Origin: Microglena sp. YARC
Lineage: Eukaryota; Chlorophyta; Chlorophyceae; Chlamydomonadales; Chlamydomonadaceae
DNA length: 64,000 bases
Direction of reading: 5' to 3'
Assembly: GCA_022414725.1 (NCBI GenBank)
Contig: CM039463.1
Coordinates: forward strand, 32,133,579-32,197,578
Both the position numbers and the translations under genes were made by a program. Under the pieces are notes generated by a model. The model worked only from the letters and a program-made list of their open reading frames with translations, was not told the DNA's origin and did not search any database. Within the stretch, counting starts at the first letter, position 1. Each line of letters opens with the position of its first letter. Shown piece after piece: positions 1 to 64,000 of the stretch.

Positions 1-821
1 TAGCACGTCAAGCTTGATTGAGCAGTAGGTGGGAGGAGAGGGGCATGCACAGATACTGGTGATGCGCCTGTATGCGGGGAGCGACAGGGACTTTGAAAGT
101 TAATTGAAAGTTTAAATTGGTTGTATCTGGTTTTATGGACGTAAATTTGTTCTGATTAAATTTTCATTATTTTTTTAATAAGATGTACGTGGTTTTGAAC
201 TAGACCTGAGCACAGCTATAGGACTTGTCTTTCAGGCTACAAACAGCAGCTGCTAGGTAGCTCCCTGAGCCAGTCACTGGGCAAAAGCCCAAGAATTCAA
301 CATAACTGGAAAGCTGATTCTGTCAGCTTCACAGTGCACTACTTTGCTTTGAGTTCGGATGGGTAGCAAGCCAGGGGCACCACCTTAAGCAATTAAGCAG
401 GGTCTGATTAGGTCTAACCCAGATTTGAAAGATGACGTCACTCTCACCGTTCCTGCATGTAGGTGGGGAGCCACTGAGAGAGGGTTCTTTTTATGAAAGG
501 GTTGGTTGTTTGGAGACAGTTCTCTGTAATGAAAGGGTTGTTTCGACACAGGGTTATTTTTAATGAAAGGGCTATTTTGAGACAGGGTTGATTTTACTGA
601 CAGTAAACAGTGTCCTTTAAGTAGCACCATGGCCTACTAGCAGCTTTTGGTTAATGAAAGGGTTATTTTGAGAGAGGGTTGATTGAACTGGAAGTAACCA
701 GTGTCTTAAAGTAGCACCATGGTGCTCCTAGCAGCCTTTGGGGTGCTACTAGCAGCTTTTGGGTCCCCCAAAGGAGATCTACAGTAGCACTCCCCAAATA
801 CCACGGCACGTTACGTATAGC
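1..821. other. Gene-free repeat-rich stretch
   Basis: No coding region is recognised here. Around 228-356 lies a fragment resembling the arm of the AGCAGCTTCTAGGCAGCTCC foldback family seen complete at 12665, 24741 and 29424. Between about 480 and 775 a segment of roughly 125 bp containing GAAAGGGTT and GTAGCACCATGG is present twice in direct orientation. If chlorophyll synthase continues leftwards, this stretch is part of its intron. Confidence 0.4.
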
Positions 822-992
822 TAGGGATCGGCAATATAATATCATATGATGCCGGCGGTCTGGCTAGGTAACTTTGGCCTGGGGCACCATATCATATGAT
901 ATCAAATCATATAATTTTTGTACGATATCATATAATTTTTGTACGATATCATACTCGTCTTTGGTCAACATCATATGATTTGACGTTCCCTA
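822..992. mobile_element. hAT-type MITE, ATCATATGAT family, copy 1
   Basis: A 171-bp AT-rich element starts TAGGGATCGGCAAT and ends with the imperfect inverted repeat ACGTTCCCTA. Its interior is dominated by the palindromic core ATCATATGAT. The flanking octamers CGTATAGC and TGTATAAC match at six of eight positions, as expected for an aged 8-bp hAT target-site duplication. Related copies are at 10133, 12468 and 36589. It has no coding capacity. Confidence 0.75.
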
Positions 993-1079: not shown

Positions 1080-1975
1080 AAAATGTTTTTTTCACACCAG
1101 TTCCTCAGTGACACCAGCCTCCGACTCTCTAGCTTCTAAATTACGCTCGCTGCTGACGGCTGTTCCCATGGCTTTTATGCTGTGACGTTTTCTCTGCGAA
1201 TCTTTCTGTTGAACCAGTTTTTCTGCAACACCAGCCAACTCTCTAGCTCCTCCATTACCTTCGCTGCTGACGACTCTTCCATGGCATTTCATGCTGCACC
1301 AGTTTCTCGAAAACATTCACTGGTGTCCCATTTGCTCCGAGACACCAGCCGACTTCCTTGCTTCTCCACTATATTCGCTGCCGACAATTGTTTCCATGGC
1401 ATTTCATGCTGTACCAGTTTCTCGAAAACATTCACTAGTGTCCCATTTTCTCTTTAACACCAGCAGACTCTCTAGCTCCTCCATTACGTTTACTGCTCAC
1501 AATTTTTCCGCGGTATTTCATGCTGTACCAATTTCTCAAAAACATTCGCTGCTGTAACTGTTTCACCGTGACACCAGCCAACTTCCTAGCTTCTCTACAG
1601 TTCTCCATGACAGTTACTGCTCACGTCTTTTTCCATGGCATGTCATGCTGTACCAGATTCTCAAAAACATTTGATGCTGTACCATTTTCTCTGGGACACC
1701 AGCCGACTCTCTACCTTCTCCATAACATTCGCTGCGGACAACTTTTTCCATGGCATTCCATGCTGTTCCAGTTTTCCCATGACTTTTGCTATTGCACCAG
1801 TTTCTTTGCGACACCAGCCGATTTCTAGCTTCTCCACTACGTTCGCTGCTGACAATTGTTTCCATGGAAATTCATGCTGCACCAGGTTTTCAACGGCCTT
1901 CGCTGTTGTAACTGTTTCTCCATTACACCAGCCGACTTCCTAGCTTCTCCATTACATTTACTGCATCAAGTTCTT
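1080..1975. repeat. ~115-bp tandem repeat, about 8 copies
   Basis: A diverged tandem array in which each unit carries ACACCAGCC, a Tyr/Cys-neutral CTAGCTTCTCC stretch, TTCGCTGCTGAC and CCATGGCATTTCATGCTG. Short open frames on both strands are by-products of the repeat. Its origin is unknown. Because other arrays in this window derive from exon edges, this one may derive from an exon of a gene not recognised here. Confidence 0.75.
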
Positions 1976-2001: not shown

Positions 2002-2032
<31 letters not shown>

Positions 2033-2636: not shown

Positions 2637-2835
2637 TGACTTGAGGGGATGGGGTAGTAGGGCTCGATGTTGAAATCAATCTCATCCTGTCACACCAGAA
2701 TCAAACTTTTGAACAGTTTCTTTTTATATTTATTTCAAACATAGATGCGTGAATTATATATACAGCTTCACCTGAGGGGATGGGGCGGTAGGGCTCGTTG
2801 ATTTAGTCAATCCCCCTGTCATACCAGTCACTCCA
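2637..2835 (-). pseudogene. Two decayed copies of the CHLG exon-3 3' edge
   Basis: Two segments, about 2769-2835 and 2637-2705, repeat the last ~65 bases of CHLG exon 3 together with its 5' splice site and some following intron. The nearer copy keeps the codons for NEPYRPIPSG and a GGTGAAG donor-like site but has an in-frame TAA in place of the alanine codon of EIDAIN. The farther copy is more diverged and its donor reads AAGTCAAAG. Both lie in the downstream intron in the gene's orientation, so they are partial tandem duplications of an exon edge and not functional exons. Confidence 0.85.
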
Positions 2836-2964: not shown

Positions 2965-3147
2965 CTGAGGGGATGGGGCGGTAGGGCTCGTTGATTGCGT
3001 CAATCTCCCTGTCATACCAGTCGTTGATTGTCTGAGTGTAGCCAGTCAGGAAGGGACCAGACATGACCATGCATGTCAGCAGCTGGCCGATCATGACGGG
3101 GTCGTTCCACACATAGTGGCCAGAAGCAGCAGCTCCACAGCCGACAC
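2965..3147 (-). CDS. CHLG: CHLG exon 3 (prenyl-diphosphate site)
   Basis: The exon opens after TTTGCAG and stops at CAG/GTGATT. It encodes the catalytic Asp-rich motif in INDWYDREIDAINEPYRP. Its 3' edge is duplicated twice downstream (2637-2835). Confidence 0.93.
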
Positions 3148-11309: not shown

Positions 11310-14204
11310 ACTAAAGTAAGGTGCTCAGAATGACCCAAAAAATTGCTCAAAATATCGCCATTAATCATGCCATTATAGTCCCATTATAAGAATAAATCGA
11401 TCGGATGAGTAAACATTTGGAGGCCTGGGCACCTCCTGCTGGAAGCTTTATCTATCTGAATTTGTTTGTGTTGTTGCCTGTTCGTTATCCTGCATGCTCC
11501 AGAAGTGACCTCATTTAATCTGCTCTCCACTTTCTCTCTGTCGGCGGTCATCTCCACAGGAGGCGCCCTTTGACACGAACTTGGTCTTGATAGCAGCCCA
11601 GTACAATGTACGTCTTGCCTTGCTTAATGCCCACATTGGGCCCCAGGACTTCTTGCAGTGGCATTCAAACCGCTCCAGCCGCAAACTTTTGAGCAATGTC
11701 CTTCAGTGCTTCTCACTAGTCGTCCCCCAGAGCGATCTGGACATGGCTTATCTGAGGATGTTTGGTGCTAGCATGCAGCAGATGCCTGGTTGGAGCTCAG
11801 CTCTCAGTCATGTTGCAGCCTTGGGATCCAACCTCTGGAATCATGAGGTGCCTGCAAAAGGCATTTTGGACCAAAGAAAATGTGAGACTTGTGTTATTTG
11901 ATCTGAATTTCTGGGAATCACTAGGAGGTATGAGAAGATTTACCTCTCTGGTGGGAAATGGGTGACACAACTCACTGTTCAAATGCACAGAAAAACCCTT
12001 ATCACTGAAACTGGTCAGATAGTTCAAAGTCAACTCCAATATGGAATCTCTCCCCCCCCCCCCCCCCCCCTCCCCTCCCTCTCTCCCTCTCTCCCTCTCT
12101 CTCTCTCTCTCTCTCAATTTCTGGTATCTACTTGCATTCAAACAGTGTGTGTCTCTGCACAGTGTGTGTGCCTATAGGCACACAAGTGTGAATACACCTC
12201 GTCCTGGTGTATGCAATTCCAACTTTCATCTTCTTGTCTGCCCCAGGTCTGAAAGGCCGAAAGGCTTGGTTGGCGGTGAACATAGATGCTGGTGAAGAGG
12301 ATATCTTGATCAGGTTGCACAAGCAGCTGTGCTCGCAAGGACAACATGCAAATCTGCTCACTGTCATCGCTCCGAAAGACTCTCACCGTTGCTTTGAGCT
12401 TTCAAAGACGATCCGTCGAGCAGGGCTAAGCGTGGAGCTGAGAAGTGACAAGCCGCTCTCTTGTAAGTAGGGAATGGCGATATGATGTCATTTCATCATA
12501 CAGTATGATACTGGCAGTCTGACTAGGCTAAAGTTACCATTTATATATAATATCATATGATGCAATTTGTATGATATCAAATGGTATTATACACTCCTCA
12601 GGGCAAAAATAATATGATGTGCCTGCTCTCTGGCAAGGCCACTCTCGATGAACCCGAACTTCAATGTTTTCCTTTTCGGCTACGAGCAGCAGCTTCTAGG
12701 AAGCTCCCCTGGCTGGCCAATCAGCCGAACTTAATGCAACCTAGTGCATCTTTAAGCTGATGTAATCAGCTTTCTAGCGCTGCTGAATTTTTGAGGCTTA
12801 GCCCAGTGGCTGGCTCAGGGAGCTGCCTAGAAGCTTCTGCTAGTAGCTGAAAAGAGAAACAGTGCTGAACTTAGTTACAACATACATGTCTCCGACCATG
12901 GAAATTCTCACTGTCTGGATCATCCAAAATATTGAAAGCATGATCAAAAATTACAAAAGTAAGGAAGGGCACTTTAGGTATCCAGCTCATTGCCAATGCC
13001 TGTTCCCTGGGACTTGATTCCCTGAACTATCCTCAGACTGGGTCAGGCAAGGTGTCCGTAATAGTAGTTTATGATGAGGAATGCGGGAGTTAGTCGTCTG
13101 CAACTTGCGTGGTGGGGATGCTGGTGGTTGCTGCAGATAGCCTCCAAATTCAATGCTCTCGTTTCCACTGCTGCTCAATATTACAGCACCTTAACTACGG
13201 CTCAAATATTTCTTATTTCAGATGCCTCGGACATCATGCTGCTATTTGAGCCCGCTCAGCTCAGCCTGTTATACCACGCTTGCCACTACTGCTCCATTAT
13301 CGCACCTTAACTACAGCCAAAATGTTTCTTATTTTCAGATGCCACGGACGTCCTGCTGCTAGATGAGCCCGCTCAGCTTGGCCTGTTCTACCACGCTTGT
13401 GAACTGGTCTACTATGGTGGCAGCATGCCCAGTAGCTGCAGCCCTACAGCCAAGTCGCTGTCAGATATGGCCAGTGCCGCAGTTGCGAGTTGCGCCCTGC
13501 TGGTAGGCTCCACAGTTGCTACAGAGGAGTTGGGTGGCCTCATTTGCGGCTTAAATGGTGCAGCTATTCATGCGTCCGAGGATGCAGCTGCTGCAGTCCA
13601 GCAATCGGGTAGGTGATCAGTTTGCCGATTGGCTCACACTAGTAATGTGGTGCTCTTATGTGGTGTCGAGTTTGTCGATCGGCCCACACTAGTTATTTGG
13701 TGTTTGTATGTGGTTTCAAGTTTGTCATTTGGCCCACACTAGTTATGTGGTGTTCTAATGTGGTGTCGAGTTCGTCAATCGGCTCAAACTAGCTATGCGG
13801 TGTTCTTATGTCTTGTCTGTGTTGAGTTTGTCGATCAGCTCACACCATCGACCAGATAGTTTACCTGGTTAGGGAGCAGCTTGTTCGCTAGCGAGTGGAC
13901 CAGCACATGGGCCAGCTTGCCAGGCAGCTGGTGGACTGTACATGTATGCAACAAATCCTATGCGCTTTTCTTGCAAACAATTGGCAGAGAGTGTAGACTA
14001 ACGGAGCGACAGCTGTCAGCGGAATCGAGTGCAGGGGACCAAAGCCAGGGTTTACGAGACAGTTAGGGCCAGAGTTACCTCGCTTCAAACGGACAAGCGC
14101 ACATCGCAGTTGTGGGGATCCAATTTCTACCTCCATTGCTTAGTCCTGTATCACTGAATCACTCACCTGCACTTCCTAATTCCCTCACTCTTGCACCAAT
14201 CACT

Positions 14205-28560: not shown

Positions 28561-28609
28561 TCCAGTGCTTGTCACACACATAGTGAATAGTTAGTCAGGT
28601 ACCATGTAC

Positions 28610-45060: not shown

Positions 45061-45189
45061 TGTGTCCCGCTGGATGTCGAGCACAAAGAGTCATACTCAA
45101 AGAGGCTCGAGATACTCTGCCTGGGAGCGTCCTGCCATCGGCCCACAGCAGATAGGCCCTTTCCTCTTGTACCGTTCACTTCTTGCCCA

Positions 45190-48115
45190 GCAGCTTCATG
45201 CCATACGCCTGTAGTGGATTGCCGAACATACTTTTTCCCCTTGCACCATTCTCTTCTTCCCCAGCAGCTTCCTGCCGAAGGCTTGCCCCTTGTCGCCATG
45301 GTAGCCAGGCAAGGGTACCACCCCAGGGAAAGGTTTACCCCAGCCAACGACAGGCATTCATTTCCAATCTTGGGCGCCCCAATGCAAGGTTTCACTGCTT
45401 GCCTGCCAGTTTCCTGCTGAAGGCTTCGGCCTTGTCGCCGTGGTAGCCAGGCAAGGGTGCCACCCCAGGGAAAGGTTCACCCCAGGCAACCATAGGCATT
45501 CATTTCCAATCTTGGGCGCCCCATGCAAGGTTTCACTGCTTCCCCACCAGTTTCCTGCCCCAGGCCTGGGCCTGGTCGCTGTGGTATGTAGCCACCTTGG
45601 GCAGACACCTCAAGTGGATTGCTAGATATGACCTGTGCCCTTGGACCATTCACTTCTTACTCAGCAGCAGCCTGCCATACGCCTGAAGTGGACTGCTGGA
45701 TATGGCCTGTGCCCTTGCACCATTCACTTCTTCCCCAGCAGGCTGCCCAAGGTTTGGACCTGGTCGCTGTGGTCTCTACACTGCACAGACGCCTGAATTG
45801 GATAGCCAGATATGGCCTGTTTGCTTGCACCATTCAATTTTTACTCAGCAGCAACCTGCCATACGCCTGAAGTGGACTGCTGGATATGGCCTGTCCCCTT
45901 GCACCATTCACTTTTCACCCAGCAGTATCCTGCCCAAGGCTTGGGCCTGGTCGCCGTGGTCACTACCCTGCACAGACGCCTCAAGCGGATTGACAGCTAT
46001 GGTCTGTGCCCTTGCACCATTCACTTCTTACTCAGCAGCAACCTGCCATACGCCTGAAGTGCACTGCTGGATATGGCCTGTCCCCTTGCACCATTCACTT
46101 TTCACCCAGAAGTATCCTGCCCAAGGCTTGGGCCTGGTCGCCGTGGTCACTACCCTGCACAGACGCCTCAAGCGGATTGACAGCTATGGTCTGTGCCCTT
46201 GCACCATTCACTTCTTACTCAGCAGCAACCTGCCATACGCCTGAAGTGGACTGCTGGATATGGCCTGTCCCCTTGCACCATTCACTTTTCACCCAGCAGT
46301 ATCCTGCCCAAGGCTTGGGCCTGGTCGCCGTGGTCACTACCCTGCACAGACGCCACAAGCAGATTGACAGCTATGGCCTGTGCCCTTGCACCATTCACTT
46401 CTTACTCAGCAGCAACCTGCCATACGCCTGAAGTGGACTGCTGGATATGGCCTGTCCCCTTGCACCATTCACTTTTCACCCAGAAGTATCCTGCCCAAGG
46501 CTTGGGCCTGGTCGCCGTGGTCACTACCCTGCACAGACGCCTCAAGCAGATTGACAGCTATGGTCTGTGCCCTTGCACCATTCACTTCTTACTCAGCAGC
46601 AACCTGCCATACGCCTGAAGTGGACTGCTGGATATGGCCTGTCCCCTTGCACCATTCACTTATCACCCAGCAGTATCCTGCCCAAGGCTTGGGCCTGGTC
46701 GCCGTGGTCACTACCCTGCACAGACGCCTCAAGCGGATTGACAGCTATGGTCTGTGCCCTTGCACCATTCACTTCTTACTCAGCAGCAACCTGCCATACG
46801 CCTGAAGTGCACTGCTGGATATGGCCTGTCCCCTTGCACCATTCACTTATCACCCAGCAGTATCCTGCCCAAGGCTTGGGCCTGGTCGCCGTGGTCACTA
46901 CCCTGCACAGACGCCTCAAGCGGATTGACAGCTATGGTCTGTGCCTGCCACCATTCACTTCTTACTCAGCAGCAACCTGCCATACGCCTGAAGTGCACTG
47001 CTGGATATGGCCTGTCCCCTTGCACCATTCACTTTTCACCCAGAAGTATCCTGCCCAAGGCTTGGGCCTGGTCGCCGTGGTCACTACCCTGCACAGACGC
47101 CACAAGCGGATTGACAGCTATGGTCTGTGCCCTTGCACCATTCACTTCTTACTCAGCAGCAACCTGCCATACGCCTGAAGTGGACTGCTGGATTTGGCCT
47201 GCCCCCTTGCACCATTCACTTTTCACCCAGCAGTATCCTGCCCAAGGCTTGGGCCTGGTCGCCGTGGTCACTACCCTGCACAGACGCCTCAAGCGGATTG
47301 ACAGCTATGGCCTGTGCCCTTGCACCATTCACTTCTTACTCAGCAGCAACCTGCCATACGCCTGAAGTGGACTGCTGGATATGGCCTGTCCCCTTGCACC
47401 ATTCACTTATCACCCAGCAGTATCCTGCCCAAGGCTTGGGCCTGGTCGCCGTGGTCACTACCCTGCACAGACGCCTCAAGCGGATTGACAGCTATGGTCT
47501 GTGCCCTTGCACCATTCACTTCTTACTCAGCAGCAACCTGCCATACGCCTGAAGTGGACTGCTGGATATGGCCTGTCCCCTTGCACCATTCACTTATCAC
47601 CCAGCAGTATCCTGCCCAAGGCTTGGGCCTGGTCGCCGTGGTCACTACCCTGCACAGACGCCACAAGCAGATTGACAGCTATGGCCTGTGCCCTTGCACC
47701 ATTCACTTCTTACTCAGCAGCAACCTGCCATACGCCTGAAGTGGACTGCTGGATATGGCCTGTCCCCTTGCACCATTCACTTTTCACCCAGCAGTATCCT
47801 GCCCAAGGCTTGGGCCTGGTTGCCGTAGTCACAACCCTGCGCAGACGCCTCAAGCGGATTGCTAGATATGGCCTGGCCCCTTGCACCATTCCCTTCCTCC
47901 ACAGCAGTTTCCTGCCGAAAGCTTGGGCCTGGTCGCCGTGGTCACTACCCTGCACAGACACCTGAAGTGGATTGCTAGATATGGCCTGGCCCCTTGCACC
48001 ATTCCCTTCCTCCCCAGCAGCTTCCTGCCGAATGCTTGGGCCTTGTCGACGTGGTCACCACCCTGCACAGACGCTTGGAGTGGACAGCCAGATATGGCCT
48101 GGCCCCTTGCACCAT
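45190..48115 (-). repeat. 187-bp satellite derived from the XPB stop-codon end
   Basis: About 12 regular units (GCCTGAAGTGGACTGCTGG recurs at about 45681, 45869, 46056, 46243, 46430, 46617, 46804, 46990, 47177, 47364, 47551, 47738) are flanked by diverged units. On the minus strand each unit has CACGGCGACCAGGCCCAAGC, GGCAGGATACTGCTGGG and AAGTGAATGGTGCAAGGG. These correspond to the last ~17 XPB codons, the stop and the next bases. The unit is a dimer of two related halves. Long overlapping frames in it are artefacts. Confidence 0.9.
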
Positions 48116-48280
48116 TCACTTCTTCCCCAGCAGCTTCCTGCCAAAGGCTTGCGCCTTGTCGCCGTGGTAGCCAGCCTTGTTGGGCCTGCCACCAGATTTG
48201 TACTCCAGGTACCTGTACCCTCCAGGGGCACCAGATAGGGCTGACATGGATCCCAGTCCACGCCTCCCTTTGCGGGCCGC
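48116..48280 (-). CDS. ERCC3: XPB terminal exon
   Basis: The exon opens after TTTTGTGTAG with [17 protein letters not shown] and closes at TGA after LLGKK, giving 54 codons before the stop. It is the single copy with an intact acceptor and full tail; its 3' end seeds the satellite downstream. Confidence 0.88.
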   Translation of the reverse strand, partial: AARKGRRGLGSMSALSGAPGGYRYLEYKSGGRPNKAGYHGDKAQAFGRKLLGKK

Positions 48281-50947
48281 CTACACAAAAGATGCACATT
48301 AAAAAACAGTAAGTGGTTGTTCATTGAGCGATACAGGTGCACAGCACAAAGCAGTTGGGGGGTCTTTCATTGTGCATTTCACGTCCGCAGCATAAAACCT
48401 GTTCAATATTCAATGCACAGTATAAGGTTTGTTTAATACAAAATTACCTTCTTATATAAATGATACAAGTAGGAGTTCATTCGGCAGCGAAGGTGGAGAC
48501 TGGAACAGAGACAAGGCCGCCACATGGGCCCCCTCATTGTGGTGTCTTGTCTTTTGTCGTCTTTTATTATCTTTTGTTGTGTTGTGTTGTGTTGTATTGT
48601 CATTTGTTGTGTTGTTTTGTTTTCTATTGCGTTGTATTGTGTTGTGCTCTATTGTGTTGTGTTGTCTTGTGTTGTATTGTCTTTTGTTGTGTTTGTGTTT
48701 GTGTTGTGTTGTGTTGTATTGTGTTGTATTGTGTTGTGTAGCATTGTGTTGTACTGTGCTGTATTGTGTTGAATTGCTATGTATTGAGTTGTGTTGTGCT
48801 GTTATGCATTGCGTTGTCTTGTATGTCGTGTCGTATGTCGTATTGTGTCATATCGCATTGCATTGTGGTGTACTGCGTTGTATTGTATTGTGTTGTCTTG
48901 TGTTGTATTGCGATGTATAGAGTTGTTTGTGTTGTCTGGTATATGTTGTTGTATTGTGCTGTATTGTGCTGTATGTATTGTGTTGTATTGTTTCGTATTG
49001 TATGTATTGTCATGTGTGGTATTGTATCGTATTGTTTGTATTATACTGTTCTGTATTGTAATGCAATGTTACGTTTCACATTGTGGTACAGTGCACTACA
49101 TTTTTTTGAAAGAATGAAGAGCAAAGCGTCACCCAATGACCCACCACTGCTGAAGCCAAGCCACCTGCATCAGTTTCATCAATGCCACTCAACGCCAGCC
49201 TCATCCAGACTAGCTATTGATCAATGAATCAATGGGCTGAATAAATACTGCACCCAATTAGCCACCACTGCTGATGCCAAGCCACCTGCATCAGTTTCAT
49301 CAATGCCACTCAACGCCAGCCTCATCCAGACTAGCTATTGATCAATGAATCAATGGGCTGAATAAATACTGCACCCAATGACCCACCACTGCTGATGCCA
49401 AGCCACTTGCATCAGTATCATCAATGCCACTCAAGGCCAGACTCATCCAGACAAACTATTGATCAATGAAATAATGAACTGAATAAATATTGCACCCAAT
49501 TAGCCACCACTGCTGATGCCAAGCCACCTGCATCAGTATCATCAATGCCACTCAAGGCCAGACTCATCCAGACAAACTATTGATCAATGAAATAATGAAC
49601 TGAATAAATACTGCTGCCAATTAGCCACCACTGCTGATGCCAAGCCACCTGCATCAGTCTCATCAATACCACTCAATGCCAGCTTCATCCAGTCTAGCTA
49701 TCGACAATGAAACAATGAACTGAATAAATACCGCACCCAATGAGGCAATGACCCACCACTGCTGATGCCAAGCAACCTGCATCTGCACCGTCAATGCCAC
49801 TCAACGCCAGCCACATCCAGCCTAGCTATTGATCAATAACCAGTGAACAGTATAACTCACCCTAGCTGAAGCCAAGCCAACTGCATCTGCTTTGTCAATG
49901 GCCTCAACGCCAGCCTCATCCAGTCTAGCTATTGATAATAAAAAGCGAACTGAATATAATAAATTGTGATCTGGATATAATCAACAGTTGAACTGAATAT
50001 GAACCCACCACAGCTGGAGCCAAGCCACCTGCATCAGATTCATCAATGCCAGCCTCATCCAGTCTAGCTATTGATCAATTAACAGTGAACTGAATACAAC
50101 AAAGAGTGAAATGGATATAATCAACAGTGAACTGAATGACCCACCATAGCTGAAGCTAGGCCATCTGCATCGTATTCATCAATGCCACTCAACGCTAGCC
50201 TCATCCAGTCTAGCTATTGATCAATGAAACAACAAACTGAATATAATCAACAGTGAACTGAATGACCCACCATAGCTGAAGCTAGGCCATCTGCATCGGC
50301 ATCATCAATGGACTCAATGCCAGCCTCATCCAGTCCACGTTTAGAACTTCGTGACAGCAGGTCCAACTGCCCCCTCCTGGTTTATACATGATGATGGGAT
50401 GATGATGATGATGATGATGATGATCGGTAGTGGTGGTGGTGCGACAGCGACGGCGAAAATGATGGCGGTGCTGATGCTGATGCAGCTGCAGCTGCTGATG
50501 GTTGTGATGATGATGATGATGATGGTGGTTGTGATGATGATGATGGTGATGATGGTTGTGATAATGATGATGATGAATGATGATGATTGATGATGATGAT
50601 GATTGAATGATGATGATGATGATGATGGTTGTGATGAATGATGACGTGGTTGTGGTTGGTTGTTGACGTGATGATGATGATGATGATGATGATGATGCAA
50701 TGATTGATTGATATGATGATGATGATGATGATGGTGGTTGATGATGATATGATGATGATGATCATGATGATGATGATTGATGATGGTGGTTTGATGATGA
50801 TTGATGATGATGATGATGATGATGATGTGTTGTGATGATGATGACGGTGGTGTTGATTGATGATGATGATGATGATGATGATGAAATTGTGATGATTGAT
50901 TGATGGATGATGATGTTGATGATGATGATGATGCATGATGATGTTGT

Positions 50948-50981: not shown

Positions 50982-53900
50982 ATGATGATATGATGATGAT
51001 GATGATGATTTGTGATGAGTGATGAGTTGATGAATATAATGATGATGATAGTGTGCTGGTGACTGTGTGATGATGATGATGATGATATGATGATGATGAT
51101 GATGGTGATGATGCTGATGATGATGAGCCCTCGTGATGATGATCCCTTGGGTGATGATGATGGTGGTGATAATGATGATGATGATGATGATGATGACGAT
51201 GGCAGTGTTGCTGCTGCAGCTGGTGATGGTCGTTGATGTGATGGTGGTGTTGATTGGTGCTGCTGCTGCTGCTGATGCTGATGGCAGTGATGTTGATGCG
51301 CCCTCCCAGCAAAACACGAAGCATCAAGTCGCATCAAGAGGGCAGCAAGTGTAGAGGAGAAACCCCAGCTTGCCAAGCAACAATGTTTATAGCGAGGGAC
51401 TGCCACGTTGCTCGAATCTTGCGGAAGTATACATCGAATATGTATACTGGTATGGCGAATCTGGCGGAGGCACATATTGGTTATCAATCCAACATGACTA
51501 CAATCGGCCTGCAACAGTCAGCACTACAGAGAGGGCTACTACAGTCAGCACTACAGAGAGGGCTACTATAGCCAGCACTACAGAGAGGGATACTACAGTC
51601 AGCACTACAGAGAGGGCTACTACAGTCAGCACTACAGAGAGGGCTACTATAACCAGCACTACAGAGAGGGATACTACAGTCAGCACTACAGAGAGGGACA
51701 CTACAGTCAGCACCAAGCTGAAGCGCAGAGCCATGAGTCGAGAATATGAGAAGCAAGAGGAGACCAGCTTGCCTTAGCTTGCCAAGCAACATAGCAAGGG
51801 TCTGTCTAGCAGGTTCTTCATTAAGAGGAAAGTTGTAGGGCCATGTGTATCCACCCACATCAACCCCTGCTGTACTGCCCCCCACCAGTCAATATAACCC
51901 CCCCACCCCCACCCCACACACACACCAAGTGCATCTAGCCTGTGAGTTGAGAAGTGGTAGTGTGCCAGTTGGGATTCTTGTGCTGCATCCAACAAGTTGG
52001 TGATGACCTTAAAGCTGTAGCCTTGGTCAATCAGAAACTGCTGGCGCTTGGCTGAGTAGAACATTTCCTGCAGCATGAGATTCAAATTTTGAATTTTGAA
52101 CATTGCGATGTTCACATTTTGAATTAGGCCGGGTAGAACATTTCCTGCAGCAACAGACTCAAATTTTGAATTTTAAACACAAGTTGGTGATGACTTTGAA
52201 GCTGTAGCCCAAGTCAATCAGGAACTGCTAGTGCTTGGCCGAGTAGAACATTTCCTGCAGCAACAGATACAATTTTTGAATTTTAAACACTTGTGGTGAT
52301 GGACTTGAAGCTGTAGCCCTGGCCAATCAGGAACTGCTGGCGCTTGGCTGAGTAGAACATTTCCTACAGAAAGAGATTCAAATTTTGAATTTTAAACATT
52401 GTGGTGAAGACCTTGAAGCTGAAGCTGCAGCCCTGGCCAATCAGGAACTGCTGGAGCTTGGCTGAGTAGAACATTTCCTGTAGAAAGAGATCCGCATTTT
52501 GAATTTTAAACATTGTGGTGAAGACCTTGAAGCTGCAGCCCTGGCCAATCAGGAACTGCTGGAGCTTGGCTGAGTAGAACATTTCCTGTAGAAAGAGATC
52601 CAAAATTTTGAATTTTAACATTGTGGTGAAGACCTTGAAGCTGCAGCCCTGGCCAATCAGGAACTGCTGGAGCTTGGCTGAGTAGAACATTTCCTGTCGA
52701 AAGAGATCCGCATTTTGAATTTTAAAAAAACATTGTGGTGAAGACCTTGAAGCTGCAGCCCTGGCCAATCAGGAACTGCTGGAGCTTGGCTGAGTAGAAC
52801 ATTTCCTGTAGAAAGAGATCCGCATTTTTTGAATTTAACATTTGTGGTGAAGACCTTGAATCTGCAGCCCTGGCCAATCAGGAACTGCTGGAGCTTGGCT
52901 GAGTAGAACATTTCCTACAGAAAGAGATTCAAATTTTGAATTTTAAACATTGTGGTGAAGACCTTGAAGCTGCCCAAGCTGCAGCCCTGGCCAATCAGGA
53001 ACTGCTGGAGCTTGGCTGAGTAGAACATTTCCTGTAGAAAGAGATCCGCATTTTGAATTTTTAAACATTTGGTGAAGACCTTGAAGCTGCAGCCCTGGCC
53101 AATCAGGAACTGCTGGAGCTTGGCTGAGTAGAACATTTCCTACAGAAAGAGATTCAAATTTTGAATTTTAAACATTGTGGTGAAGACCTTGAAGCTGCAG
53201 CCCTGGCCAATCAGGAACTGCTGGAGCTTTGGCTGAGTAGAACATTTCCTGTAGAAAGAGATCCAAATTTTGAATTTTAAACATTGTGGTGAAGACCTTG
53301 AAGCTGCAGCCCTGGCCAATCAGGAACTGCTGGAGCTTGGCTGAGTAGAACATTTCCTACAGAAAGAGATTCAAATTTTGAATTTTAAACATTGTGGTGA
53401 AGACCTTGAAGCTGCAGCCCTGGCCAATCAGGAACTGCTGGAGCTTGGCTGAGTAGAACATTTCCTGTAGAAAGAGATTCCGCGCATTTTGAATTTTAAA
53501 CATTGTGGTGAAGACCTTGAAGCTGCAGCCCTGGCCAATCAGGAACTGCTGGAGCTTGGCTGAGTAGAACAACGAGAGATCCGCATCATTTTTTCATTTT
53601 GTGTGGGTGAAAGACCTTTGAAAGCTGCAGCCCTGTGCCAATCAGAACTGCTGGAGCTTGGCTGAGATAGAACATTTCCTACTATAAAGAGATCCGCATT
53701 TTGAATTTTAAACATTGTGGTGAATGACCTGAAGCTTGCAGCCCTGGCCAATCAGGAACGGCTGGAGCTTGGCAGAAACATTGAGATTTCAAATTTTTGA
53801 AATAAACAGAGACTTCGAAAGCCCTGGCCAATGGACTGCTGGAGCCTTTGGCAAATTTCCTGATATTTAAACATTGTGGTGAAGATATTTCCTGTAGAAG

Positions 53901-56900
53901 AGATCCCGCATTTTTGAATTATTTAATAAACATATGTGGGTGAAACTTGAAGCTGCAGTGGCCAATCGGAACTGCTGGAGCTTGGCCTGAGTAGAACATT
54001 TCTACAGAAAGAGATCAAAATTTTGAATTTTAAACATTGTAGGTGAAGACCTTGAAGCTGCAGCCCTGGCCAATCAGGAAACTGTTAGAAAGAATCCAAA
54101 TTTGCAGCTGGCCACATTGGGCTCGAAAGAGATCCGGAATTTTATGTGGTTGAAACTTGAATTTGCAGCCTGGCCAATCAGAAGAGAATTTTTGAAATTT
54201 TGAATTTTTAAACATTGTGGTGAAACATTGCAGCCCTGGTTGAAGACCTTGAAGCTGCAGCCTGGCCAATCAGCTGCTGAGCTTGGCTAGTTTAGAACAT
54301 GAAGCGCAGACTGCTGGAGCTTGGCTGAGAGCATCCGCATTTGAATTTAAACATTGTGGTGAAGACCTTGAAGCTGCAGCCCTGGCCAATCAGGAACTGC
54401 TGGAGCTTGGCTGAGTAGAACATTTCTACAGAAAGAGATTCAAATTTGATTTTAAACATTGTGGGTGAAGACCTTGAAGCTGCAGCCCTGGCCAATCAGG
54501 AACTGCTGGAGCTTGGCTAGAAATTTTCCTTGTAAGAAAGAGATCCCTTTTAAAACATGTGTGTGAAAGACCTTGAATCTGCAGATCAGGAACATTTCCT
54601 TGCTGAGTAGAATTTTGAAATTCTTAAACATTTTGAAGAAAGCTTGCCACTACAGAAAGAGAGTCAAATTTTGTTGTGAGACCTTGAAGCTGCAGCCCTG
54701 GCCAATCAGGAACTGCTGGAGCTTAGCTGAGTAGAACATTTCCTGTAGAAAAGAAGATCCGCATTTTGAATTTTAAACATTGTGTTGAAGACCTTGAAGC
54801 TGAGCCCTGGCAATCAGGAAAAAGCTGCTGGAGCATTGCTGAAGTAGAACATTTCCTACAGAAAAGATTCAAATTTTGAATTTTTAAACATGTGGTGAAG
54901 ACCTTGAAGCTGCAGCCCTGGCCAATCACGGAAAAAACTGCTGGAGCTTGGCTGAGTAGCAACATTTCATTTTTGAATTTTTAAACATGTGGTAGAAAGA
55001 GAAATCCTTGAGTAGCATTTTGATTCACAATTTTAAACATTGTGGTGAAGACTTGAAGTAAAACCTGCAGCCCTGGCCCAATCAGGAACTGCTGGAGCTT
55101 GGGCTGAGTAGAACATTTCCTACAGAAAGAGATTCAAATTTTGAATTTTTAAACATTTGTGGTGGAAGTGAAGCTGCACCTGGCCCAATCAGGAAAGCTT
55201 TGGCTGAGAGATTTCCTACAACAGGCAAATTGTGGTGAAAATTTGGGGAACATGGTGAGGCATTTCCTTAGCAGGATGAGAATTTTGAGTAAACATTTTT
55301 CCGAAAGAGATCTGCTGAGACCCCTGCCGCCAAGCTTTGCAGCCCTGGCCAGGATCATGGATTGGTGAGGTAGAGAGATCGCTTGAAACATGTGGTGAAG
55401 ACCTTGAAGCCGGCAGCCTCTTGAGTATCTGCAGAATTTCTACAGAAAGAGATTAAATTGAATTTAAACATTGTGGTGGGGAACTGCTGGAGCTTTTGGG
55501 CTTTGAGTAGTTTTGTAAGAAAGAGGGGTACGGTGTTGCTTTGGCCAATTGAAGAGCTTGGTGAGTAGAACATTTCCTGTCAAAGAGATCCGCATTTTGA
55601 ATTTTAAACATTGTGGTGAAGACTTTTTGAAGCTGCAGCCCTGGCCAATCAGGAACTCTGGAGCTGGTAGCTGAGATCCGCATTTTGAAAAACATTTTGA
55701 GCAGCCTTGGAATCGAAGCTTGGGCAGAACATTTTAGATTTAAATTTTTGAATTTTAAACATGATGTGGTGAAGACCTTGAAGCTGCAGGCCAATCAGGA
55801 ACTGCTGGAGCTTGGCCACATTTTCTGTTAGAAAGAGAATATTTTGAATTTTTAAACATGGTGGTGAGACCTTGCCAATCAGGGAAAAAGAGAACGCACA
55901 GCTTTGGCTGAAAGAGATTTTTCAAATTTTTGAATTTTTACATTTGGTGAAGACTTGAAAAATAAGAAAACTGCTGGGAGCTTGGCCTGGGTAGAACATT
56001 TCCTGATCCGCACCTGGCCAAGCCTTTCAGGAAAGCATTTTCCTTGCAATGTTTGAATTTTTAAACAGAAGACCTCTGAAGCTGCCAGCCCTCAGGCCAA
56101 TCAGGAACTGCTGGACCTGGTGTTGGGTAGCTCGTGATCCAAAGAATCAGGCTCCCAACTGCCCAATTCATCGAAGGCTTGGCTCACGAGCTAAGAAAAA
56201 GAGTCTGAATTTAAACATTTCTGCACAATCAGGAACTGCTGGAGCTTGGGCGATTTTCCTTGTGATTCCGCAAATGGTTTTAACATGTGGTGTAAGACCT
56301 TGAAGCTGCAGCCCTGGAATCACGCTGGAAGGCTTGGCTTGAGTAGAAATTGCATTGTGGTGAAGACCTTCTGCAAAGAAAAGCTGAAACAGCTGGCTTG
56401 AGTGATTCAATCCTTCCGCCAGATCTTCCAGGATTTTGAATTTTTTTAAACATTGTGGCTCATTGAAGCCAATCAGCCCTGGCCAATCAGGAACTGCGGA
56501 GCTGGCTGGCTAGGCAGCTTGCTGTAGGAAAGAGATCCTGTAGAAAGAGAATTTTGAATTTTTAAACATTGTGGTGAAGACCTTGAAGCTGCAGCCCTGG
56601 CCAATCAGGAACTGGAGTGCTTGCGCTAGTAGCTGGAGCAGAATTGACATCTTGAAATTCCTTAAAATGGTGTGACTTAAAGCCGGGCCCAGAAACTGCC
56701 AGAAGGAAAACTGCTGGAGCTTGGCCAGAGAACTGCTGCTGGAGCCTGTAGAAAGAGCATCCGCATTTAAACAAAAACATTGTTGGTGAAGACCTTTTGA
56801 AGCCTGCAGCCCTGGCCAATCAGGAACTGCTGGAGCTTGGTCTGAGTAGAACATTTCCTGGTACAGAAAAGAGATCCGCATTTTGAATTTTAAAACAATT

Positions 56901-57955
56901 GTGGTTGAAGACCTTGAAGCTGCAGCCCTGGCCAATCAGGAACTGCTGGAGCTTGGCTGAGTGAACATTTCCTGTAGAAAGAATCCGCATTTGAATTTTA
57001 AACATTGTGGTGATTGAAATCTGTGCCAGCCCTGGCCAATCAGACTGCTGGAGCCTGCTGAGAGAACATTTCCTGTTCAAGATCCGCATTTTGAATTTTT
57101 AACATTTTGAACGACCTTGAAGCTGCAGCCCTGGCCAATAAGGAAACTGCTGGAGCTTGGCTTAGCTAGAACATTTCCTGTAGAAAGCAGGAATCCGCAT
57201 TTTGATTTTAAACATTGTGGTTGAAACTTGAAGCCCTGCCAGCCCTGGCCAATCGAGGAACTGCTGGAGCCTTGGCTGAGTAGAACATTTCCTGTAGAAA
57301 GAGATTCAAATGTTGAATTTTAAACATTTATGGTTGAAGCTGAAGCCTGCAGCCCTGGCCAATCAGGAAACTGCTGGAGCCTTTGGCTGCAGTAGAAACA
57401 TTCTACAGAAAGAGATTCAAATTTGATTTTAAAGAGACTCTGAAGAGTACACTCTGAAGCTGCAGCCCTGCGCCAATCAGTGAACTGCCTGGAGCCTTGG
57501 CTGAGCTAGAACATTTTGGTACAGAAGAGATTCAAATTTTGGAATTTTTAAACAATTGTGGTCGAAGACCTTGACAATCAGCCCTGTCCACTGATCTACA
57601 GGTAGCACTGCTCAGGGCGTGTGCGAACTAGAGGACACTGTGTCCATATACACTCTCCTCTTCTCTGCTTCGTGGCTGTTAGTATTGCGGATGCTCCTGT
57701 CGCGCAGCCCTGCATCTCAACACTGCTGGAGGCTTGGGCCGTGAACTCTCAATACAGACAAATCCTAAGAGATCGGATATCACTCTTGAATTTTTCACCG
57801 AATTTATATTCTAGGCTCATTGAGAGCGTGAGCGCCGAGCGAGAGACCAATCAGCCCAGAAACTGTGGTTGGATGGAGCTTGGCTGTGAAAACATTTCCT
57901 GTAGAAAGAGACTCCGCATTTTGATTTTAAACATTGTTGGTGAAGACTTGAGAAA

Positions 57956-58023
<68 letters not shown>

Positions 58024-61000
58024 CAAGGAGACGAGAGAAGCCAATCAGCAAACACACCACCTAAAAAAAAATAAAAAAAAAAGAAACTGCAGCCCCTGGC
58101 CAATCCGGAACTGCTGGAGCTTCAGTAAGAAATTCCTACAGAAAGAGATTTCAAATTTTAATTTTAACTGGGGAGACCTTTAATCTGCCCAGCCCTGGCC
58201 AATTCAGGACTTGCTGGCTTGCGGGGATGAGAGAACATTTCAGAAGAGATTCAAATTTTGAATTTTACATTGTGGTGAAACTTTGAGCTGAGCCCTGGCC
58301 AATCATGGAACTGCTGGAGCTTGGCTGAGTGAATTTTAGAAAATCCGCCATTTTGAATTTTAAACATTGGTGAAGACCTGAAGCCTGCCCAAGCCCTGCA
58401 ATAGGAACTGCCGGAAGCTTGGCTGAGGGAACATTTCCTTACAGAAAGAGATTCAAATTTGAAATTTTAAACATTGTGGTAAGACCTTTGAACTGCCAGC
58501 CCTGGCCATCAGGAACTGCTGGAGCTGGCTGAGTAGAACATTTTCCTGTTAGAAAGAGTCCAAATTTTGAATTTTAAACATTGTGGTGAAGATTGAAGCT
58601 GCAGCCCTGCCAATCGAACTGCCTGCGAGCTTGCTGAGAGAACATACAGAAAGAAGCGCATTTTGAATTTTAAAACATTGTGGACCTTGAAGCCTGCAGC
58701 CGCTGGCCATCTGCAGCCAGGAACTGGCCAATCAGGAAGCTGTATTGGCTGAGTAGAACATTTTCCTGTCGGAAAGAGATTCCGCATTTTGAATTTTTAA
58801 ACATTGTGGTGAAGACCTTGAATCTGCAGCCCTGCGCCAATCAGGAAACTGCTGGAGTTGCTGAGTAGAAACATTTCCTGTGTAAAGCTTATCCGTAGAA
58901 TTTTAAACATTGTGGTGAGATTGAAGCTGCAGCGCCTGGCTGTCAGAACTGCTGGAGCTTGGCTGAGAGAAACATTCCTACAGGAAAAGAGATTCAAATT
59001 TTGAATTTTAAACATTGTGGTGAAGACCTTGAAGCTGCAGCTGGCCTGGCCTGAGATCTTTTGGCTGATGAGAAACATTTCTTGTAGAAAGAACAAATTT
59101 TGAATTTTAAACATTGGGTAGAGGACCGAGCGCAGCCCGGCCTCGGAACTGCGAGCTGAGTAGAACATTTCCTGTAGAAAGAGATCCGCATTTTGAATTT
59201 TAAACATTGTGGTGAAGACTTGAAGCTGCAGGCCCTGCCAAAGCTGGCGCAGCTTGGGCTGATAGAACATTTCTGAAAGGATTTCCAAATTTTTGAATTT
59301 TAAACCATGGGGTAAGAACTGCTGAAGGAGCCCTGGCCAATCAGGAACTGCTGGAGCTTGGCTGAGTAGAACATTTCCTACAGAAAGAGATTCAAATTTT
59401 GAATTTTAAACATTGTGGTGAAGACCTTGAAGCTGCAGCCCTGGCCAATCAGGAACTGCTGGAGCTTGGCTGAGTAGAACATTTCCTGTAGAAAGAGATT
59501 CAAATTTTGAATTTTAAACATTGTGGTGAAGACCTTGAAGCTGCAGCCCTGGCCAATCAGGAACTGCTGGAGCTTGGCTGAGTAGAACATTTCCTGTGGC
59601 AGAGAAGAGATTCCGCATTTTTTGAATTTTTAAACATTGTGGTGAAAGACCTGTGAAGCTGCAGCCCTGCGCCAATCAGGAACTGTGAGCTTGGCTGAGT
59701 AGAACATTTCCTACAGTAAAGAGATTCAAATTTGAAATTTAAAACATTGTGGTTTTGAAGACCTTGAAGCTTGCAAGCCCTGGCCAATTTCAGGAACTGC
59801 ATGGAGCTTGGCTGAGTAGAACATTTCCTTGTACAGAAAGAGATTCAAATTTTGAATTTTAAAACATTAAACATGTGTCGCTTGAAGACCTGAAGCTGCA
59901 GCCCTGGCCAATCAGGAACTGCTGGAGCTTGGCTGAGTAGAACATTTCCTGTAGAAAGAGATTCAAATTTGAATTTTTAAACATTGTGGTGAGACCTTGA
60001 AGCTGCAAGCGCCCTGGCCAATCAGGAACTGCTGGAGCTTCTGAGTAGAACATTTCCTGTAGAAAGAGATCCGCATTTGAATTTTAAACATTTTGTGAAG
60101 ACCTTGAATCTGCAGCCTGGCCAATCAGGAACTGCTGGAGCTTGGCTGAGTAGAACATTTCCTGTCGAAAGAGATCCGCATTTTGAATTTTAAACATTGT
60201 GGTGAAGACCTTGAAGCCTGCAGCCCTGGCCAATCAGGAAAACTGCTGGAGCTTGGCTGAGAGAACATTTCCTGTTAGAAAGAGATCCGCATTTTGAATT
60301 TTTAAACATTGTGGGTGAGACCTTGAAGCTGCACCTCTGCCAATCAGGAAACTGCTGAGAGCTTGCGCTGAGATAAAACATTTCCTACAGAAAGAGATTT
60401 CAAATTTTTGAATCTTTAAACATTGTTGGTGAAGAGACCTTGAAGCTGCTGCAGCCCTGGCCAGATCAGGAACGCTGAGCTTGGCTGAGTAGAACATTTC
60501 CTGTAGAAAGAGATCCCCATTTTGAATTTTAAACATTGTGGTGAAGACCTTGAAGCTGCAGCCCTGGCCAATCAGGAACTGCTGGAGCTTGGCTGAGTAG
60601 AACATTTCCTACAGCAAAAGAGAAGATTCAAATTTTGAATTTTTAAACTATTGTGGTGAAGACCTTGAAGCTGCAAGGCCCTGGCCAATCAGGAACTGCT
60701 GGAGCTTGGCTGAGCTAGAACATGTTCCTTGTAGAAAGAGATCCAATTTTGAATTTTAAACATTGGTGCGTGCTGAAGACCTTTGAAGCTGCACCCTGGC
60801 CAATCAGAACTGCTGGAGCCTGGCCTGAGTTAGAACATTCTACAGGAAAGAGATTCAAATTTTTGAAATTTTTAAACATTTGTGTGTGAAGACCTTTAAG
60901 CTGCAGCCCTGGCCAATCAGGAACTGCTGGAGCTTGGCTGAGTAGAACATTTCCCTGTAGAAGAGATCCAAATTTTGAATTTTTAAACATTGTGGTGAAG

Positions 61001-64000
61001 ACCTTGAATCTGCAGCCCTGGCCAATCAGAAACTGCTGAGCTTGGCTGAGTAGAACATTTCCTTGTCGAAAGAGAGATCCGCATTTTTGAATTTTAAAAC
61101 ATGTGTGGCGTGAAGACTTGAAGCTGCAGCCCTTGGCCAATCAGAATGCTGGAGCTTGGCTGAGCTAGACATTTCCTGTAGAAAGAGATCCGCATTTTGA
61201 ATTTTAATTTTAACAATTTGTGGTGGAAAAGACCTTAAAGCTGCCAGCCCTGCCAATCAGGAAACTTGCTGGAGCCTTGGCTGAGTAGAACATTTCCTAC
61301 AGAAAGAGATATCAAATTTTGAATTTTAAACATTGTGGGTGAAGACCTTGAAGCTGGCAGCCCTGCCGCCAATCAGGAACTGTGGAGCTTGGGCTGAGTA
61401 GAACATTTCCTTGTAGAAAGAGATCCGCGATTTTGAATTTTAAACATTGTGGTGAAGACTTGAAGCTGCAGCACCTGGCCAATCAGGAACTGCTGAAGCT
61501 TGGGCTGAGAGACATTTCCTACAGAAAGAGATTCAAAATTATTGATTTTAAAACATTGGGTTGAAGACCTTGAAGCTGGAGCCCCTGGCCAATCAGGAAC
61601 TGCTGGAGCTTGCTGAGTAGAACATTTCTTGTAGAAAGAGATCCGCATTTTGAATTTTAAACATTGTGGTGAGATGGCACCCTGGCCAATCAGGAAAGCT
61701 TGGGTGAGTAGAACATTTCCTACGATTTGCATTTTAAACAGAAAGATATTCAAATTTTGGAGAACATTTCCATACAGAAAGAGATTCAAATTTTGAATTT
61801 TATTGTTGGTGAGACACTGCAGCCCTGTGGTTGGGAAGAGCCTGAAGCTGCCCAGCCCTGCGCCAATGGCCTGCAGAAACTGCTGAGACCTTGCAGCCCG
61901 GCCAAATCAGGTCTGGAGTAGGAGAACAATTTCCGTGTAGAAAGAGATTCCCGCATTTGAATTTAAAAACATTTGGATGAAGACCTTGAAGCTGCAGCCC
62001 TGCCATCAGGAAACTGCGAGCTTGGCTGAGTACGCGAACAATTCCTACAGAAGAAGAGATTACAATTCTTGAAATTTTAAACATTGTGGCTGAAAGACTT
62101 GAAGCGTGCAGCCCTTGGCCAACAGGAACTTGCTGGAGCTTGGCTTGAGTTAGGAACATTTTCCTGTAGAAAGAGATCCGCATTTTCTTGAATTTTAAAC
62201 ATCTGTGAAGTAAGACCTTGAAGCTGCAGGCCCCAGGCCAATCGAGGAACTGCTGAGCTTGGCTGAGTTAGAACCATTCCTACAGAAAAAGAGATTCAAA
62301 TTTTGGACAATTTTATAAACAGTGTGGTGAAGGACCTTGAAGCTGCAGCCCTGGCAATCAGGAACTGCGGAGCTTGGCTGAGTAAAAGAACATTTTCGCT
62401 GTTAGAAAGAGATCCAAATTTTTGAATTTTAAACACTTGTTGTGAAGACCATGAGAATTCTGCAGCCCTGCAATCAGAACTGCTGCGAGCCTTGGACCTG
62501 AGTAGAACATTTCCTCGTCGAAGAATCCCGCATTTGAATTTTAAACGATTGTGGTGAAGACCTTGAAGCTGCAGCCCTGGCAATCAGGACACTGCTGGAG
62601 CTTGCTGAGATAGACAATTCCTGTAGATAATAGATCCGCCATTTGAATATTTAATACCAACTTGTGGTGAAAGTACCTTGAAGTGAAGCCCTGGTCAACA
62701 GGAACTGCTGGAGCTTGAGCTGCCAACGATAGAACCTTCACGTTACAGAGAAAGGAGATCTTTCAAATTTGAATTTTCAAACAACATTGTGTGAAGAACC
62801 TTTGAAGCTGAGCCTGCCAATCAGGAACTGCTGGAGCTTGGCTGGTAGTTAGAACATTTCTAGAAAGAGATCCGCATTTTGAATTTTAACATTGTGGTAA
62901 GGACCTTGAAGCTTGCACCTGGCAAATCAGGAAAAACTGCTGGAAGCTATGGCTGAGTAGAACATTTCCTACAGAAAGAGATTCAAATTTTGAATTTTAA
63001 ACATTGTGGTGAAGACCTTGAATCTGCAGCCCTGGCCAATCAGGAACTGCTGGAGCTTGGCTGAGTAGAACATTTCCTGTAGAAAGAGATCCGCATTTTG
63101 AATTTTAAACATTGTGGTGAAGACCTTGAAGCTGCAGCCCTGGCCAATCAGGATATGCTGGAGCTTGGCTGAGTAGAACATTTCCTACAGAAAATAGATT
63201 CAAATTTGAATTTTTAACATTGTGGTGAAACTTGAAGCTTGCAGCCCTGGCCCAATCACGAACTGCTGGAGCTTGGACTGGAGTAGAACATTTCCTGTAG
63301 AAGAGATCCGCATTTTGAAATTTTAAACATTGGTGGTGAAACCTGAGTGCAGCCCTGGCCCAATAGGAACTGCTTGGAAGCTTGGATGAGTAGAACAGTT
63401 TCCTACAGAAAGAGATTCAAATTTTGAATTTTAAACATTGGGTGAAGACCTTGAAGCTGCAGCCCTGGCCAATCAGGAAACTTGTGGAGCTTGGCTGAAG
63501 ATAGAACATTTCCTGTAGAAAGAGATTCCCATTTGATTTTAAACATTGTGTGTGAAGACCTTGAAGCTGCAGCCCTGGCCAATCAGGAACTGCTGGGCTT
63601 GGCTGATGTAAACATTTCCTACAGAAATAGATTCAAATTTTGAATTTCTAAACATTGTGGTGAAGACCTTAATCTGCAGCCTGGCAATCAGGAACTGCTG
63701 GACTTTGGCTGAGTAGAACATTTCCGTAGAAGAGATTCCGCATTTTGAATTTTAAACATTGTGGTGAAGACCTTGAAGCTGCAGCCGCTGGCCAATTCAG
63801 GAACTGCTGGAGCTTGGCTGAGTTAGAACATATTCCTGAGAAAGAGCTATCCGCATTTGAATTTAAACATTGTGGTGGAAGGACCTTGAATTCTGCAGCC
63901 TGGCCAATCAGGGAACTGGCTGGAGCTTGGCTGAGTAGAACATTTCCTTACAGAAGAGATTTCAAATTTTGAATTTTAACATTGTGGTGAGACTTGAGCT
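48116..64000 (-). CDS. ERCC3: XPB/ERCC3 TFIIH helicase, C-terminal three exons (partial)
   Basis: XPB is the 3'-5' DNA translocase of TFIIH, needed for promoter opening and nucleotide excision repair. Read right to left, exon A (about 51922-52067) encodes [20 protein letters not shown] and [10 protein letters not shown], a hallmark of eukaryotic XPB after helicase motif VI. Exon B (50271-50376) encodes an acidic stretch [18 protein letters not shown]. The terminal exon (48116-48280) encodes [26 protein letters not shown] and KLLGKK then TGA, matching the plant-like GSMSxMSG..YxEY tail. Phases agree if exon A ends inside the GT repeat at 51922. Helicase domains must lie beyond 64000. All three visible exons are accompanied by tandem copies of their edges. 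Confidence 0.9.
48536..49095. repeat. TTGTGTTGTATTG microsatellite
   Basis: About 560 bp of variants of TTGTGTTGTA lie in the last XPB intron. The Cys/Val/Leu-rich frames on the plus strand are artefacts. Confidence 0.95.
49130..50270 (-). repeat. ~120-bp array derived from the XPB exon-B 3' edge
   Basis: Nine copies (TCATCCAG-CTAGC motifs near 49200, 49321, 49440, 49561, 49685, 49805, 49915, 50051 and 50203) precede the true exon at 50323 when read left to right. On the minus strand each has CTGGATGAGGCTGGCRTTGA, a GATGCAGRTGGC segment and a GTGGTGGGTCATT-like donor. They lie in the downstream intron and carry frame-breaking changes. Confidence 0.87.
50271..50376 (-). CDS. ERCC3: XPB exon B (acidic linker)
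   Basis: Acceptor ATAAACCAG and donor ATG/GTGGGT bound a 106-bp exon, phase 2 in and 0 out. The acidic composition fits the poorly conserved linker between the helicase end and the C-terminal tail of XPB. Its 3' edge is repeated nine times downstream. Confidence 0.7.
50390..51300. repeat. ~900-bp (GAT)n microsatellite in XPB intron
   Basis: Interrupted GAT/ATG triplets fill most of the intron between exons A and B. His-, Ile- and Ser-rich frames of up to 328 codons on the minus strand are pure microsatellite translation. Confidence 0.97.
51508..51712. repeat. 27-bp minisatellite, about 8 units
   Basis: Units of CAGCACTACAGAGAGGGCTA plus CTACAGT repeat with a 9-codon period. The sequence AGCTTGCCAAGCAACA occurs on both sides (about 51368 and 51776). 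Confidence 0.92.
51922..52067 (-). CDS. ERCC3: XPB exon A
   Basis: The exon follows the acceptor CATGCTGCAG and reads [25 protein letters not shown]. The donor lies within a GTGTGTGTG run, so the exact end is ambiguous in steps of two bases; 51922 satisfies the phase of exon B. Confidence 0.88.
57590..57900. other. Non-repeat insert in the 108-bp array
   Basis: About 270-300 bp of sequence unrelated to the array (CTGATCTACAGGTAGCACTG to CGAGCGAGAGACC) interrupts it. No gene or element is recognised. An assembly chimera is possible. Confidence 0.55.
57957..58020. repeat. Poly-A run of about 64 bases
   Basis: An unbroken A homopolymer occurs in the noisiest part of the array, followed by A-rich sequence to about 58085. 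It may be a real poly-A insertion or a sequencing artefact. Confidence 0.9.

Follow-up and report, generated by a model that had tools for sequence, protein, structure and literature searches.

Many exon edges in the green alga Microglena sp. YARC are accompanied by nearby tandem copies of themselves, and the copies of splice junctions lie invariably on the intron side of the exon. In the 64,000-nucleotide stretch that we studied (G000:C2:32133579-32197578, from an assembly of 568 Mb in 2390 contigs; hereafter the window), eight exon edges in CHLG, WaaA and XPB have between 1 and 113 such copies each, and the same pattern reaches beyond these three genes into unrelated genes across the genome. 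The reading that we favor, to which we assign a probability of roughly 0.65, is that short stretches of DNA are tandemly duplicated all along genes, that the arrays so formed grow, and that splicing, as we predict, takes place at the innermost copy.

Results

When a junction is called covered if a local copy extends 15 nt or more to both sides of it, 27 of the 75 junctions placed in CHLG, WaaA, XPB and seven genes of the chaperonin (CCT) family are covered, the CCT genes alone contributing 23 of 54. At each of the 27 there is a tandem duplication spanning the exon-intron boundary, with exon and intron sequence, nearby and on the same strand. The initial annotation had described a strict polarity, with 5' edges copied upstream and 3' edges copied downstream, and all 27 covered junctions bear this out: acceptors have upstream copies in 16 of 40 cases and downstream copies in none, donors have downstream copies in 11 of 35 cases and upstream copies in none, and the number of junctions with a copy on the wrong side is 0/27. 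The nearest copy lies at an offset of 77-328 bp (at most 217 bp for 25 of the 27), and copy identities span 67 to 98%. The window genes had hinted at a constant exon depth of about 60 nt, an idea that was abandoned on the larger set, in which depth ranges from 17 to 113 nt.

The CCT family was chosen for the extended sample as unrelated to the finding. The seven loci fetched hold 37 of the 64 family matches and were selected, with their sequence still unseen, for a length within 10 kb, with the caveat that the table of matches already hinted at a copy in one of them (L026). Phase, homology and splice consensus served to place the junctions; a few were set by hand, and some were dropped before counting: a CCTd match at 39358262-39358420 that was classed as a copy, the donors of CCTe exon 2, CCTf exon 2 and the XPB helicase exon, which were not determinable, and CHLG exon A, which was without a consistent donor. 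Genes differ from one another, and in CCTf none of the three junctions has copies. Where exon edges are approximate, the pattern is the same: in four further UbiA-family genes, 4 of 12 exon ends are copied, all on the intron side (two genes with copies and two without), and in a class I tRNA-synthetase fragment both acceptors examined (2/2) are copied on the intron side. One UbiA-family exon-edge array (L017, C6:7540050-7543229), with 172-bp units at 95-98% identity, is among the youngest seen.

The window itself was read with tandem repeat scans, three-frame readings and alignment of each exon to the whole window. The initial annotation had counted at least eight copied edges with one to about 110 copies and had assigned them to CHLG, WaaA and XPB; the edges and genes hold, and the largest array has 113 copies. 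XPB is identified by matches to XPB chains of solved structures. Its third-last exon (51940..52067, minus strand; the functional copy, whose donor reads GC) is the seed of a 108-bp-unit array of its 5' edge that occupies 52125..64000 on the minus strand, continues beyond the window and ends at coordinate 64959, giving 113 copies in all. AG is retained in 89 of the 109 copies that cover the AG site, and the 105 matches inside the window are all on one strand, as are the listed matches beyond it. The 3' edge of the second-last exon (50271..50376, minus) has seeded nine downstream copies of about 121 bp (49109..50205, minus, limits approximate), with GT retained in 9/9. The terminal exon (48116..48280, minus; stop codon 48116-48118) has an amplified end that carries no splice site, followed by 30 downstream copies of the stop-codon end (45150..48053, minus, lower limit approximate).

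In WaaA, identified by Pfam PF04413 above cut-off, the 5' edge of the exon at 13339..13608 (plus strand) has one upstream copy (13162..13282, plus) at 84% identity with AG intact. The terminal exon (28101..28383, plus) has one copy of each end: a short upstream copy of its 5' edge (27990..28005, plus) that matches at 15/16 nt, as good a match being found in 0/1000 shuffles, and a diverged downstream copy of its 3' end (28421..28561, plus) at 75%, which was missed by the stricter terminal-end test. Between them lies an exon at 26281..27422 (plus) whose 5' edge has six upstream copies (25219..26148, plus), all with AG intact (6/6). This exon has no Pfam match and is tied to WaaA through a public protein, P0001, in which the WaaA C-terminus is joined to a stretch resembling this exon. 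When P0001 is compared with window 26281-28383, 61 of 68 residues are identical in the WaaA C-terminal part; an exact match to the genome is seen for two CCT proteins that are named in the same style, and P0001 perhaps comes from a second gene copy.

CHLG is recognized by PF01040 on two of its exons. Exon B (2965..3147, minus; the functional copy) carries the NDWYDREIDAINEPYRPIPSG motif, with PF01040 at window 2960-3130, and its 3' edge is the seed of two downstream copies within 2639..2829 (minus), at 95% (2768-2829) and 80% (2639-2698), which include only a few intron bases. The edges of CHLG exon C have no local copies. By the strict test (at least 15 nt on both sides), which misses CHLG exon B and the short WaaA copy, 17 of the 21 window-gene junctions are without a copy. 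Other arrays are tied to no placed exon: a 114-bp array in the CHLG B-C intron (1096..1964, no strand assigned) does not match exon B, and a 27-bp array between two XPB exons (51514..51713, no strand assigned) is confined to the intron.

That copying yields decoy splice sites, as had been proposed, is supported by 102 decoys collected around 27 junctions, at distances of up to 2.6 kb. Of these junctions, 26 belong to the covered set as well; CCTb_3A is absent, not having been recovered, and XPBa_D is additional. The splice dinucleotide is retained in 87 of the 102, comprising 50 of 57 acceptors and 37 of 45 donors, so that most decoys have not been disarmed. With a scoring matrix trained on the true sites, some decoy equals or exceeds the true site in 13 of the 27 junction sets (7/15 acceptor and 6/12 donor), and the mean score of intact decoys is below that of true sites (8.3 vs. 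11.1 and 6.8 vs. 8.8). Two public gene models place the splice at the innermost site: P0008 agrees with spliced CCTd at all of 369 residues and uses that site at 5 decoy-bearing junctions, and P0128, which has an additional 31-residue exon unplaced in our CCTb reading, is identical to CCTb over 443 aligned residues and uses it at 4. It is predicted, consistent with exon definition, that the cell splices solely at the innermost copy.

It might be supposed that the copies are under selection, with decoy arrays acting as splicing regulators, spacers or enhancers. AG and GT are kept in the decoys about as often as neighboring positions or slightly more, which would suit such a role; but identities fall anywhere in their 67 to 98% range, even the paralogs CCTc and CCTd have no junction segments in common, and of 57 intact-core decoys in CCT genes, 55 would break the protein if used, through a frameshift or an added stop. 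Intron length, moreover, is the same with and without edge arrays (P = 0.53). We consider selection on the copies very improbable.

Copies nonetheless make up much of the intron sequence: they supply 49% of 66.7 kb of intron (54% in CCT genes), and junction-anchored arrays account for 21% of the 66.7 kb (30% in CCT genes, and 100% in one intron). The 34 measured intervals are all 365 nt or longer.

Nor do the arrays look like a product of assembling noisy long reads. Indels are abundant in parts of the XPB array, which might speak for such an error, but most copies clearly differ from one another, unrelated genes on six large contigs show the same pattern, and exons match public proteins exactly, although these proteins may derive from the same assembly. 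An assembly artefact is, in our judgment, scarcely credible.

Origins by retro-copying or dispersed copying were also considered. A retro-copying step, one of the mechanisms first suggested, is disfavored, since unspliced intron sequence is part of the copies and no junction-spanning segment among the 27 is found again in other fetched loci. It also speaks against retro-copies that the copies run on into the intron and that, in tblastn comparisons, they stop within a few residues of junctions, save for weak or extended matches. A dispersed element was set aside on the same count of 0/27 in another fetched locus; exon-only or intron-only matches elsewhere in the fetched loci were found for 9 of the 27. 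Dispersed copying would, in addition, place about half of the copies on the wrong side, where 0/27 are seen. Intron gain by duplication is not supported either: its signature is partial and occurs in 2 of 34 introns.

Discussion

The process that we propose begins with local tandem duplication of mostly 75-225-bp stretches along whole genes. A duplication over an acceptor would give the order intron, acceptor with exon start, acceptor with exon start, rest of exon, in which use of the last acceptor alone would leave the exon intact; a duplication spanning a donor would be the mirror image, with the innermost donor alone keeping the exon whole. 5' edges should therefore appear copied upstream and 3' edges downstream, as they are in 27 of 27 cases. 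Polarity thus follows from tandem duplication together with the need for an intact exon, and no mechanism acting at the boundary is called for. Slippage or unequal exchange would then lengthen some arrays, up to the 113 copies at XPB. Duplications reaching deep into an exon or across it would be removed by selection, as we infer from the fact that coverage falls to zero beyond 100 nt, whereas junction-spanning arrays may survive thanks to the pairing of sites across the exon, the decoys presumably being ignored through exon definition.

An alternative is that boundaries are hot spots, at which a step linked to splicing or to R-loops, or the chromatin of exon ends, starts tandem duplication more often than elsewhere. 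This resembles, in a milder version, the single boundary-acting mechanism that the initial annotation had put forward, of which one part stands, namely a common process acting locally on DNA in unrelated genes genome-wide, and one part does not, namely that the polarity demands a mechanism specific to boundaries. If local duplication is measured as coverage, junctions are not favored: it amounts to 45% of 8966 intron-interior positions, 36% of junctions and 14.5% of exon-interior positions, and junctions shifted along their own genes are covered in 34.3 cases on average (standard deviation 4.5) vs. 27 observed, both backgrounds, interior and shifted, including the edge arrays themselves. Junction and intron-interior rates are also close at each identity cut-off (0.27 and 0.24; 0.16 and 0.13; 0.08 and 0.08; 0.05 and 0.03). 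Within exons, coverage declines with distance from the junction, from 36% at 20-39 nt to 27% at 40-59, 15% at 60-79, 6% at 80-99 and 0% from 100 nt. Acceptors and donors are affected alike (16/40 and 11/35), and the XPB stop-codon end, with its 30 copies, indicates that a splice site is not needed for amplification. Tandem arrays occur elsewhere as well: nine random loci of 10 kb have from 1 to 85% of their sequence in arrays of period 20 or more.

Several results, however, weigh against duplication that is indifferent to boundaries, and some of them favor hot spots. In 34 introns there are 55 linked copy families, of which 25 are junction-anchored, occupying 26 of 68 junction ends, and 30 lie on no placed junction; families tied to no junction predict 15.2 such ends, so that the observed number is in 1.7-fold excess (P = 0.002). 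When copies are filtered by identity, at cut-offs from 80 to 90, junction ends outnumber the prediction from unanchored families 1.7- to 5.1-fold. Exon-side depth is also narrower than random breakpoints predict (mean 64 vs. 80 nt, P = 0.02), with 3 observed cases deeper than 100 nt against 8 predicted (P = 0.014). Other points bear on different steps of the argument. Among terminal ends, that of XPB is the sole one of six found amplified in the terminal-end test (1/6). Near-exact two-copy cases, at 4 of 99 arrays (a set that leaves out L014 and L015, which overlap the window), are too few for reading breakpoints or microhomology, and some counted introns contain a short unplaced exon (in CCTb and CCTc, and perhaps in CCTe, CCTf and CCTg). 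Use of the innermost site, furthermore, is deduced from the conservation of the proteins and from gene models of unstated evidence base, and one such model, P0010, lacks about 20 residues of CCTc at a decoy-bearing donor.

The excess at junctions has a second possible source. Edge copies would be expected to keep their identity longer because the exon-edge copy diverges freely on one branch only, and this slower decay of the exon copies would push toward an apparent excess at junctions, mimicking a preference; the two effects are inseparable here. Shallow exon-side depth, likewise, may be caused either by selection or by the mechanism itself. A modest preference of the duplication process for exon edges is therefore possible. 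The polarity needs no such step; we think it unlikely that boundary hot spots are the main explanation, and we retain local duplication along whole genes as the preferred one.

A stronger form of the preferred reading is that growth acts as a one-way ratchet, in which junction-spanning duplication would be a main source of intron DNA and innermost pairing would be so strict that 113 decoys are neutral. We offer this tentatively, at somewhat less than even odds. If it is true, the genome already offers, in a unicellular organism, a saturation test of exon definition.

Precedents are known from single loci. In intron 18 of human ABCA7, a variable number tandem repeat forms an array in the downstream intron, starting at the splice donor of the exon, with a 25-bp unit repeated about 12 to 427 times; individuals differ in its length, and splicing sometimes takes place at a decoy donor (PMC5954066). 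The likeness is that of a donor-anchored tandem array whose units carry a copy of the donor, and 87 of the 102 algal decoys likewise keep their dinucleotide. ABCA7, however, is a single locus with a unit that starts at the donor and is without exon sequence, whereas in the alga about a third of the examined junctions are involved and the 77-328-bp units include exon sequence, as read in the DNA alone of one assembly. In the potato RdRp gene, a tandem duplication across an intron-exon boundary created a new intron (PMC4974935). There, too, the duplicated stretch crosses the boundary and inherits the acceptor signals, but the outcome is a new intron, while the algal copies sit within an existing one. 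Introners, reportedly, are intron sequences of repetitive origin copied into many genes; the algal copies share the repetitive origin and differ in that 0/27 junction-spanning segments recur in other fetched loci. In the literature searched, which mostly excludes subscription journals, no genome-wide case of exon-edge copying was reported.

Strict use of the innermost site would accord with what is reported for long human introns, where splice sites nearest to each other across the exon are preferred, an exon-centric proximity rule that applies, together with exon definition, above an intron length of about 250 nt (PMC9225289). The closest pair across the exon is also the pair left functional in all 27 algal cases; the human preference comes from alternative splicing, and for the alga it is deduced from genomic sequence.

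Work on how a true splice site is told from similar sequences usually relies on a small number of engineered duplications. Here, about 100 natural decoys at 27 junctions, of matched sequence and at known distances, would allow the proximity rule to be tested in bulk from RNA reads. The arrays also point to one route of intron growth, from the exon's own edge, and in such genomes gene finders and repeat maskers face many false exon ends.

Other observations

The TCP1-alpha paralogs CCTc (L025) and CCTd (L026) seem to differ in intron positions: a CCTc intron near residue 170 is absent from CCTd, a CCTd intron near residue 324 is absent from CCTc, and both of these paralog-specific introns carry edge arrays. 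TCP1-alpha matches are headed by chlorophytes, with Chlamydomonadales among the nearest, among the matches listed. In CCTa (L023), the spliced reading falls out of frame after ELTPDILGP, near 6360-6410, reflecting either an assembly indel or a damaged copy.

The RNA polymerase family (PF00562) was not usable as a sample, having 123 matches, most of them in long open frames. These Rpb2-domain matches, many near full length in a single open frame, occur on all six large contigs and on many small ones; their number is far above the nuclear and plastid need and looks like many endogenous giant-virus-like integrations.

Three further features lie on the plus strand of the window. A 1787-codon frame inside the large WaaA intron (17041-22401) includes seven copies of a 162-bp repeat and has no Pfam match; a leucine-rich-repeat frame at 34615-36321 is built on a 69-bp unit in about 19 copies; and a reverse transcriptase domain (PF00078) lies at 39238-39960.

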